Position numbers and translations under genes: made by a program. The notes under the pieces were generated by a model that did not search any database, was not told the origin of the DNA, and saw only the letters and a list, made by a program, of their open reading frames with translations. Below, one piece after another: positions 43,984 through 45,865 of a DNA stretch of 64,000 nt; the first letter of the stretch is position 1; each line of letters begins with the position of its first letter. The stretch is taken from assembly GCA_017441925.1 (NCBI GenBank), contig JAFRUE010000014.1, positions 62,001 through 126,000 of the forward strand, in the 5' to 3' direction. Origin of the DNA: Bacillota bacterium (GTDB taxonomy: Bacteria; Bacillota; Clostridia; Lachnospirales; Bianqueaceae).

Positions 43984-44646
43984 TTATTCTCCTCTCTTCT
44001 GGATCACGTCGCCGCTGTTCTTCCAGATGCTGTTCTCCGGAACAACGCCGCGCACACAGCTCGTCGGATAGACGTTGGAATGCCGGCCGATCACCGTGCC
44101 GGGATTCAGCACGCTGTTGCAGCCCACCTCTACATAATCGCCGACCATCGCGCCGAACTTCTTGAGACCGGTCGCGATCTGCTCCGTCCCGTTGTGGACA
44201 ACGACCAGCTTCTTGTCGCTCTTGACGTTGGAAGTAATGGAACCCGCGCCCATATGGCTGTAATAGCCGAGGATGGAGTCTCCGACATAGTTGTAATGCG
44301 GGGTCTGCACATGGTCAAACAGGATCACGTTCTTCAGCTCACAGGAGTTGCCGACCACACAGTCCGCTCCGACCAGCGCCGAACCGCGGACAAAAGCGCA
44401 GTGGCGCACTTCGGTGCGGGCTCCGATGATGCAGGGCTCGCCCAGATAGGCCGACGGGAAAACTTTCGCCGTCTTGTGGATCCAGACATGGGGGGACACT
44501 TCTGTATAGTCCTCTCCCAGTGTGGGGCCCAGCTTCAGGATCAGCTCCTTGATGCCGGCGAGAGCTTCCCAGGGATAGGTGAACTGTCCCAGATACTCCC
44601 CTGCCAGCGTATGCTCCAGATCATAGAGGTCTTTGATGGTATACAT
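43984..44646 (-). CDS. Left-handed beta-helix sugar-phosphate acetyltransferase (GlmU C-domain-like)
   Basis: The 220-residue protein has a short helical N-terminus (1-~45) and then hexapeptide repeats (about 55-200: HKTAKVFPSAYLGEPCIIGARTEV, GSALVGADCVVG, SVLNPGTVIGRHSNV). The segments PHYNYVGDSILGYYSHMGAGSITSN and KKFGAMVGDYVEVGCNSV resemble the acetyl-CoA and substrate sites of the GlmU acetyltransferase domain. The pyrophosphorylase domain of GlmU is absent. In this operon it probably acetylates GlcN1P, the product of GlmM. Its ATG overlaps the nagB stop by one base (TAATG), so translation is coupled. Exact substrate is inference. Confidence 0.8.
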   Translation of the reverse strand: MYTIKDLYDLEHTLAGEYLGQFTYPWEALAGIKELILKLGPTLGEDYTEVSPHVWIHKTAKVFPSAYLGEPCIIGARTEVRHCAFVRGSALVGADCVVGNSCELKNVILFDHVQTPHYNYVGDSILGYYSHMGAGSITSNVKSDKKLVVVHNGTEQIATGLKKFGAMVGDYVEVGCNSVLNPGTVIGRHSNVYPTSCVRGVVPENSIWKNSGDVIQKRGE

Positions 44647-45449
44647 TACAGGCGCTCCTTCTTCTCGATGTCGAGGAAGTACTTGTAGGTATCGACAGTC
44701 AGCTCACCGCAGGCCGCCTCATCGCAGGCAATGATCGCGCCGTTATGCATCTGCAGCGAAGAGCAGGTCCACTTCTGGCTCACGCCGCCCTCGACCGTCG
44801 CAGCCAGCGCCCGCGCCTTGTTGTGGCCATTGATCAGGATCATGACTTCCTTGGAATCCATGACGGTACCAACGCCGACAGAAAGAGCCTGCGCTGGTAC
44901 AGCTTCCGGATCATTGCCGAAGAAACGGCTGTTAACGATACGGGTGTCGGTGGTCAGATTGCGGACTCCGGTACGGGAGGTCAGTGAGGTATAGGGTTCG
45001 TTGAAGGCGATGTGACCATCCACACCGATGCCGCCCATGAACAGGTCAATACCGCCGTAAGAAGCGATCTTCTCCTCATAACGGGCGCACTCACCCTCCG
45101 GATCATCGGTCATGCCGTTGAGGATGTTGATATTCTCCGGCTTCATGTCGACCAGATGGTTGAAGAAATTGTCATGCATGAAATACCAGTAGCTCTGGTC
45201 ATGCTCGTGGGGCAGCCCCAGATACTCGTCCATGTTGAAGGAAACAACATTGGCAAAGCTCAGCTCACCGGCCTGATTCATGCGCGCCAGCTCCTTGTAG
45301 ACACCGATCGGGCTCGATCCGGTGGGAAGGCCCAGGATAAAGGGACGATCCGCCTCCGGTCCCGCATTGTGCGCCTTGATCTTACCGGCAATATAATTTG
45401 CAGCCCATTTGCACATATTGTCATAGTTTTCCTGAATAACAACTCTCAT
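44646..45449 (-). CDS. nagB: Glucosamine-6-phosphate deaminase/isomerase NagB
   Basis: The 267-residue enzyme is of the E. coli length class. Active-site elements: LGLPTGSSPIGVY, SFNMDEYLGL (D72 equivalent), GGIGVDGHIAFNEP (D141, H143, E148 equivalents) and DTRIVNSRFF. NagB interconverts GlcN6P with fructose-6-phosphate plus ammonia; it normally degrades. Here the gene follows a glmS ribozyme and precedes GlcN1P-forming genes, suggesting the reverse, biosynthetic direction. Residues of the E. coli GlcNAc6P allosteric site differ: SSLASRTRIK becomes TSLTSRTGVR, so the arginine and lysine that bind the activator are replaced by Gly and Arg. RBS GAGGAGGAT. Confidence 0.92.
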   Translation of the reverse strand: MRVVIQENYDNMCKWAANYIAGKIKAHNAGPEADRPFILGLPTGSSPIGVYKELARMNQAGELSFANVVSFNMDEYLGLPHEHDQSYWYFMHDNFFNHLVDMKPENINILNGMTDDPEGECARYEEKIASYGGIDLFMGGIGVDGHIAFNEPYTSLTSRTGVRNLTTDTRIVNSRFFGNDPEAVPAQALSVGVGTVMDSKEVMILINGHNKARALAATVEGGVSQKWTCSSLQMHNGAIIACDEAACGELTVDTYKYFLDIEKKERL

Positions 45450-45593
45450 TTTATAGATCCTCCTCTTGATGTCATAATAAGATCGGCTTCGAGTCCGGGG
45501 CCGACCAGATAAGCCCAGCTAAAGCCAGTTAAACTGTCCCTTATCGAAGCTTGTGATGAAGCCGCGCTCTATCGCGGTTCTCGATTAGGTCAA

Positions 45594-45721
45594 AGAGGAG
45601 TTCTGTTACAGTTTTGATTCTGCTTTTTGTCTCTCTTCTGACGACTCCTAAAGCCGTGGCAGCATCCGCCGAGTCTTCCGACAACTGCCATCCCTCGTCA
45701 CCCTGTTACGGGCCTGGCGCT
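45594..45721 (-). ncRNA. glmS ribozyme (GlcN6P-responsive self-cleaving RNA) in the nagB leader
   Basis: On the minus strand the RNA shows the conserved core in order: cleavage context A/GCGCCAG (A at 45721, G1 at 45720), the short P1 hairpin CCC-GTAACA-GGG, then TGACGAGG, a P2 stem GGCAG...CTGCC enclosing TGTCGGAAGACTCGGCGGATG, and CACGGCTTTAGG. A long-range stem AGGAGT/ACTCCT encloses the P3/P4 part (45594-45658). This matches the Bacillus glmS ribozyme landmark by landmark (AGCGCC, TGACGAGG, TCGGCGGATGC, CGGC). Cleavage is activated by GlcN6P and destroys the message. It lies ~145 bases before the nagB start codon. A CCGCG/CGCGG hairpin follows at about 45571-45586. Confidence 0.93.
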
Positions 45722-45836
45722 AACAGCTCTTCCTGTTTAACTCTGCCTCCTTGCGAGAACGGGCTGTTTTACTGAGATGATGTCCTGCACAAAACAGGAG
45801 CCCATATGGTGTGTAATAAAAACATAAACAATATAA

Positions 45837-45865
45837 ATTATACTATGATAATAAAGAAAATGCAA
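45837..45865 (-). promoter_or_regulatory. Strong promoter of the ribozyme-nagB-glmM operon
   Basis: Minus strand TTGCAT (45860-45865), 17-bp spacer, TATAAT (45837-45842). The predicted leader is ~380 bases, the first ~110 of them ahead of the ribozyme cleavage site. Confidence 0.82.

Follow-up and report, generated by a model that had tools for sequence, protein, structure and literature searches.

A glmS-type ribozyme ahead of nagB in a Bianqueaceae genome and a predicted synthetic role for NagB

Among metabolite-sensing ribozymes, the glmS ribozyme is the textbook case, and the gene that it accompanies is usually glmS; in Bacillus subtilis, the product of GlmS, glucosamine-6-phosphate (GlcN6P), shuts the glmS message off via this RNA. 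What would such an element do in front of nagB, a gene of the GlcN6P deaminase family? The question is raised by a stretch of 64,000 nucleotides (nt), below called the window, from a Bacillota bacterium of the Bianqueaceae; it covers positions 62,001–126,000 of contig JAFRUE010000014.1 in assembly GCA_017441925.1 (2.72 Mb, stated completeness 97.86%). A first-pass annotation, made from the letters of the window, had described a full glmS ribozyme core on the minus strand, followed by nagB, a GlmU-like acetyltransferase gene and glmM. The answer that we consider likely is that the ribozyme heads the nagB-acetyltransferase-glmM cluster and that NagB works synthetically, making GlcN6P from fructose-6-phosphate (Fru6P) and ammonia, with GlcN6P as the predicted trigger of message cleavage.

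The ribozyme and the genes behind it

The elements of the cluster, in the order of transcription, are as follows.

45583–45732, minus strand: glmS ribozyme (RF00234); cmscan 52 bits, gathering cut-off 37, E 3.6e-09
A45721/G45720, minus strand: predicted cleavage site (A/GCGCC), read from the sequence
45459–45464, minus strand: ribosome-binding site AGGAGG, read from the sequence, 9 nt ahead of the nagB ATG
44646–45449, minus strand: nagB, GlcN6P deaminase family, 267 residues; TIGR00502 375 bits, cut-off 236.9
43984–44646, minus strand: stand-alone GlmU-like left-handed beta-helix acetyltransferase, 220 residues; Arch_glmU C-terminal region 136 bits, below the cut-off of 292
42634–43980, minus strand: glmM, phosphoglucosamine mutase, 448 residues; TIGR01455 552 bits, cut-off 447.55
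42593–42622, minus strand: intrinsic terminator-like hairpin of 13 pairs, 3' of glmM, from a hairpin search

The RF00234 match spans the whole model (positions 1–167 of 167), and the core letters GCGCC, GACGAGG and UCGGCGG are all found in it; the full core described in the first-pass annotation was thus confirmed by the covariance model, and its cleavage site is borne out by the sequence. The nagB start codon lies 271 nt past the cut and 283 nt from the first base of the match. This element is the one RF00234 match in the whole genome. No sigma-70 promoter was found upstream of the ribozyme on the minus strand between 45380 and 46430, and terminator-like sites number 4 in the window, against 2.4 expected. 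GlcN6P-triggered self-cleavage of the cluster message is predicted.

The order nagB-acetyltransferase-glmM is almost gapless, nagB and the acetyltransferase gene overlapping by one base, and both gene order and family scores agree with the operon of the first-pass annotation. The window NagB matches NagB families only, with no match to the glutaminase plus isomerase of GlmS (TIGR01135); its gene has the acetyltransferase and glmM as neighbours, and nagA is not beside it. The acetyltransferase matches PDB entries 5z09 and 2ggo (E 8e-22) and scores below the cut-offs of both GlmU and Arch_glmU. It has H308, Y311, N331 and K337 in common with 5z09, residues that presumably have catalytic roles, and is predicted to be a glucosamine-1-phosphate (GlcN1P) N-acetyltransferase. 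Since a full-length GlmU passes the cut-off in 4 of the 53 genomes searched, this genome not among them, the stand-alone protein probably performs the GlmU step.

Conservation of the ribozyme-nagB pairing

Species genomes were scanned with the window NagB, which gave at least 590 relatives; the best 80 of these were used. In the following, G000 denotes this genome, and other G and L numbers denote compared genomes and loci. A ribozyme-core pattern picked 36 of the 80 NagB loci; one of them, L038 in G330, was rejected as a ribozyme locus since Rfam gave no confirmation, leaving 35. For fifty of the loci, namely these 35 and 15 without the pattern, the search was extended to the whole genome. 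RF00234 was present in 35 of these 50 genomes (34 over the cut-off) and absent, by Rfam search, from the other 15; the 30 loci that were not followed are all pattern-negative, and the Rfam scan among them covered L081 and L096. For at least 35 of the 80 close NagB relatives, the ribozyme heads a nagB cluster and shares its contig with the NagB of that cluster. The pairing that the first-pass annotation had noticed is real in the window and conserved at 35 further loci. The ribozyme-less relatives were also searched for another riboswitch: in 17 sources, a scan at gathering scores brought up one signal recognition particle RNA and one tRNA and nothing else, and 8 sources scanned at E up to 0.05 gave no match.

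The first gene behind the ribozyme is nagB at 29 of the 35 loci, the acetyltransferase gene (AcT) at 5 and glmM at 1, at 163–429 nt from the cut. Eighteen loci have the order of the window, nagB-AcT-glmM; nagB stands alone at seven, two of which lie at the end of a contig or close to it; the order AcT-nagB-glmM occurs four times and nagB-glmM twice. The orders nagB-AcT-glmM-glmS, nagB-AcT (at a contig end), AcT-glmM-nagB and glmM-nagB-glmS were each seen once. At L225 (G328:C8), L224 (G306:C10) and L226 (G317:C101), glmS belongs to the same cluster as the ribozyme-nagB unit, follows it or directly precedes it, and a single control region may serve both aminating enzymes there. G325 (locus L083) has two glmS ribozymes, at G325:C11:26064–26215 and G325:C22:2945–3098, of which one precedes glmS and the other nagB; this genome may be a mixed bin.

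As the 35 loci were selected via NagB, they are no guide to the frequency of the ribozyme in front of other genes. We therefore turn to 295 genomes of the order, searched with RF00234 alone and with no selection for NagB. The ribozyme matched in 63 of them, 61 over the cut-off, and glmS is downstream in 57 of the 63 (60 loci examined). The other 3 of the 60 are L258, with nagB-AcT-glmM, and two weak ones, L264 and L265. The remaining 3 of the 63 ribozymes belong to this genome and G006, both with nagB-AcT-glmM, and to G014, with AcT-glmM and no nagB. The nagB of G014 adjoins a nagA-like gene at another locus (L015). At L264 (G067:C8), a 30-bit ribozyme match, possibly decayed, stands ahead of a partial NagB (88% over ~111 residues); this locus was left out of the ribozyme-nagB count, as was L265 (26 bits), where no neighbouring gene was identified. 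At L260 (G276:C5), the ribozyme is followed by glmS and then by a nagB-like gene (39% identical), all on the same strand.

To what extent is the RNA itself maintained? We aligned 38 copies: those of the 35 loci, the window, L121 and L122. In a 22-pair structure, 98.5% of the cells are paired, and 10 of the 22 pairs show two-sided changes. Covariation is 0.294, compared to a mean of 0.139 for shuffled alignments (0 of 500 as high); slid versions reach at most 0.069, a comparison that favours the stated structure, as this was drawn partly from the same sequences. RNAalifold independently gave 8 two-sided pairs. The covarying helices are P1, P2, P3 and P4.1; P4 itself was left out of the count. 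Invariance of the core letters was set aside as evidence, since 37 of the 38 copies had been chosen with a pattern demanding most of those letters; the pattern does not bear in the same way on the covariation or on the Rfam scores. The weakest scores are those of L085 (36.4, just below the cut-off) and of L039 and L087 (39 each).

The direction of the NagB reaction

The same taxonomic family also contains another well-scoring type of nagB, which offers a contrast. At all 12 loci of this type (L010–L021), a nagA-like gene, recognised by tblastn at ~31–35% identity, adjoins nagB. RF00234 was found in none of their genomes except G014, where it stands before AcT-glmM and not before the nagA-linked nagB. 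Around the 35 ribozyme clusters, NagA, NagE and NagC references gave no match within up to 3.5 kb on each side, less at contig ends. In 33 of the 35 genomes, the cluster NagB is the only NagB over the curated cut-off; this genome has nagA on other contigs, plus two further NagB homologues. At G000:C10, ~50560–52730 (L217:7564–9735), a second glmM (66% identical) stands directly before a second nagB (37% identical); the pair has no ribozyme and may be a further glmM-nagB unit. We did not take missing nagA as proof of anabolism: nagA (at least 150 bits) is missing in 21 of the 35 genomes, but the assemblies are incomplete, and this gives weak support only. Even uS3, a universal protein, is missing in 12 of the 35, so gene absences in this set are at most suggestive; of the 23 genomes with uS3, 12 are without nagA.

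The residues were numbered after E. coli NagB (NC_000913.3). D72, D141, H143 and E148, which we take to be the catalytic residues of NagB, are kept in all 39 ribozyme-linked rows of the alignment (38 genes, the window gene being present twice). In the same 39 rows, S151, R158 and K160 of the E. coli protein are replaced by T, G and R. According to PMC4281351, these three are among seven residues that bind the activator N-acetylglucosamine-6-phosphate (GlcNAc6P). Lost GlcNAc6P activation would fit an enzyme outside the breakdown of N-acetylglucosamine (GlcNAc), though NagB of Akkermansia muciniphila, which is not activated by GlcNAc6P either, works as a deaminase. In the NagB tree, 38 ribozyme-linked rows fall inside one clade of 59 rows (support 95/89), in which the ribozyme-linked rows branch first. 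Early gain of the ribozyme followed by repeated losses would fit this tree, without being proved by it.

Because the ribozyme pairing is conserved, the nagA-linked nagB genes are ribozyme-free and the activator-site residues are changed, we favour NagB as a synthase under product feedback. The first-pass annotation had argued that shut-off by the substrate ill suits a degradative enzyme, and the 12 of 12 ribozyme-free, nagA-linked nagB genes and the three changed residues back this argument. In the proposed route, NagB would form GlcN6P from Fru6P and ammonia, GlmM would turn this into GlcN1P, and the action of the acetyltransferase on GlcN1P would give N-acetylglucosamine-1-phosphate (GlcNAc1P). 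Rising GlcN6P would make the ribozyme cut at A45721/G45720, and RNase J would clear the cut message, closing the route by feedback from its product. RNase J was reportedly found by Collins et al. in 2007 to clear the cleaved glmS message of B. subtilis; this genome encodes an RNase J-type protein (TIGR00649, 595 bits, a family that we take to be RNase J). NagB would serve in plentiful ammonia, and GlmS, which uses glutamine, under nitrogen limitation.

A number of observations weigh against a synthetic NagB. The strongest argument is, in our judgement, kinetic: the report on NagB of Akkermansia muciniphila states that the enzyme fails to make GlcN6P at physiological conditions, its Km for ammonium being 41 mM; for the anabolic enzyme of Giardia, PMC4281351 gives 19–23 mM. 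An intact GlmS (607 residues, 803 bits) is encoded at G000:C4:682276–684093. NagB is thus dispensable for GlcN6P here, and replacement of GlmS by NagB was rejected for this genome. The first-pass idea of NagB as GlcN6P synthase is therefore upheld by the biosynthetic-looking operon, and it fails so far as NagB would be the only possible synthase; the glmS gene for which that annotation proposed to look carries no ribozyme of its own, so the case that it had named as refuting its reading, a glmS with its own ribozyme together with catabolic kinetics, does not apply. The presence of nagA (at least 150 bits) in 14 of the 35 ribozyme-nagB genomes and in this genome leaves room for catabolic use. 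In the ribozyme-free relative L073, a nagA-like gene and another nagB lie near the same cluster, and the ribozyme of G014 (L121, G014:C8:23871–24019) precedes acetyltransferase-glmM without nagB. At the level of the RNA, the single-sequence folding energy of the window ribozyme is ordinary (z −0.69; 52 of 200 shuffles fold equally well or better), and several P4 pairs are non-standard in its Rfam alignment. At the level of the protein, D141, E148 and Y254 of the activator site are kept in the window gene (Tyr121 lay outside the comparison), S151T and K160R are mild changes, and the T/G/R signature also occurs in 25 of 25 close relatives without ribozyme. For this last reason the signature marks the clade and was rejected as a mark of the ribozyme. 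On the tree, the ribozyme label requires 12 changes (27.9 when shuffled).

Could the ribozyme instead mainly govern glmM and the acetyltransferase, the drain to UDP-GlcNAc, with NagB as a passenger or as a two-way valve in the equilibrium of GlcN6P and Fru6P? The arrangement in G014, the 6 of 35 loci with the acetyltransferase gene or glmM in first place and the intact GlmS would all suit such a design. However, nagB comes first at 29 of the 35 loci (a set chosen through NagB and biased accordingly), it is the sole cluster gene behind the ribozyme at the seven loci described above, and GlcN6P feedback on enzymes that consume GlcN6P would be expected to make GlcN6P pile up; we regard this explanation as unlikely. 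Runaway accumulation would also be expected if NagB were catabolic and its message were cut at high substrate, although lower NagB at high GlcN6P might spare GlcN6P for the wall. Members of the NagB family are commonly deaminases, and nagA is present in this genome. The Akkermansia NagB acts as a deaminase at physiological conditions, according to its report. Against this stand the ribozyme clusters free of NagA, NagE and NagC matches in the flanks searched, the ribozyme-free nagA-nagB pairs of the family (12 of 12) and the changed activator-site residues, and a catabolic NagB under this ribozyme seems to us very improbable. As for a decayed, unresponsive remnant carried along with the cassette, the partly non-standard P4 pairs, the low scores of L085, L039 and L087 and the close relatives without ribozyme would be explained; the strong covariation over 38 copies makes it hardly credible.

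Nitrogen supply, spread of the cassette and known systems

If NagB is a synthase, why would the genome keep GlmS? The surroundings of glmS (G000:C4:660000–699999; L119, L120) encode an ammonium transporter that ends in a PII-like part, asparagine synthase B, adenylosuccinate synthase and PurF, all matched above the cut-off or over nearly their full length. Two proteins resembling glutamine synthetase and pieces resembling glutamate synthase are also found there, all three below their cut-offs. We read these surroundings as a putative nitrogen-assimilation island. Among 17 GlmS neighbourhoods from other genomes, 14 of them ribozyme-nagB genomes, at least one homologue of an island gene is near GlmS in 11, or in 8 when purine and CTP-synthase genes are not counted. 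GlmS lies in or beside the ribozyme cluster in 3 of the 17 (at L224 with a gap of ~1.2 kb), and neither situation applies in 3. A GlmS over the cut-off is missing in 8 of the 35 ribozyme-nagB genomes, one of which has a 383-bit fragment; loss of GlmS cannot be claimed for these 8, the assemblies being too incomplete, as uS3 indicates. NagB and GlmS probably divide the supply of GlcN6P by nitrogen availability.

Most likely, the cassette was passed between lineages along with its ribozyme. In the 23 genomes with uS3, NagB is 84–91% identical to the window NagB and uS3 is 52–67% identical to that of this genome, NagB being the higher in all 23; transfer is suggested because NagB is far more alike than uS3, a ribosomal protein, and proteins of this kind usually change slowly. 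Beside the cassette, at 49484–52074 of the window, there are IS21-type genes, encoding IstB and a transposase whose C-terminal domain is of the Mu type, and a piece of a Mutator-family transposase. The record titles of the 35 ribozyme-nagB genomes name a ruminant host in 9 cases, and 19 carry RUG or RUI labels, presumably those of rumen collections. We tentatively extend the synthase reading, with somewhat less than even confidence, to a horizontally spreading, ribozyme-governed ammonia route: NagB would be a true GlcN6P synthase with RNA feedback in plentiful ammonia, and the ribozyme-free, glutamine-using GlmS would serve under nitrogen limitation, much like glutamate dehydrogenase versus the glutamine synthetase-glutamate synthase (GS-GOGAT) pair.

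Divergent from the ribozyme cluster, at 46421–49357 of the window, lie an MBOAT O-acyltransferase gene and an AlgX-like gene (just below cut-off), which look like a cell-surface acetylation pair.

If NagB is indeed a synthase under RNA feedback, this conserved and spreading class would be a case of one sensor put to use on a second enzyme with the same product, and the regulatory logic of an RNA would become evidence for the direction of a reversible enzyme. This would bear on how bacteria of ammonia-rich guts make peptidoglycan, on annotation, where family models and source names label these NagB proteins as deaminases, and on antibiotics that have the glmS ribozyme as their target.

Neither the ribozyme class nor the enzyme family is new. 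According to McCown et al. (2011), all but two of the known glmS ribozymes reportedly lie within glmS mRNAs. We saw no report of a glmS ribozyme ahead of nagB in the literature searched, parts of which were accessible to us, and take the union of the two as a new variant, of which an earlier mention is possible. Like the B. subtilis type, the element belongs to the same Rfam family with the same cleavage site and core letters and the same ligand logic. Different from that type, its first gene is nagB, its P1 is very short, and the acetyltransferase gene and glmM follow. The archaeal GlmU-type enzyme (PDB 5z09, 2ggo) matches the window acetyltransferase in its C-terminal part; the latter is a stand-alone protein of 220 residues and has no nucleotidylyltransferase part.

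The catabolic nagA-nagB operons, of E. coli and of the relatives L010–L021, encode the same enzyme family (TIGR00502). They differ in that nagA is beside nagB, that those of the relatives are without ribozyme, and that E. coli NagB has S151, R158 and K160. GlmNagB of Giardia lamblia is likewise a NagB family member, described in PMC4281351 as anabolic and unaffected by GlcNAc6P. Different from the proteins studied here, it is eukaryotic and retains Ser and Arg at allosteric positions where these proteins have other residues. GlmNagB is not known to have a ribozyme. Amuc-NagB of Akkermansia muciniphila, according to its report, is also without GlcNAc6P activation and was tested as a possible substitute for GlmS; GlmS is lacking in that organism according to the same source, whereas it is intact in the genome described here.

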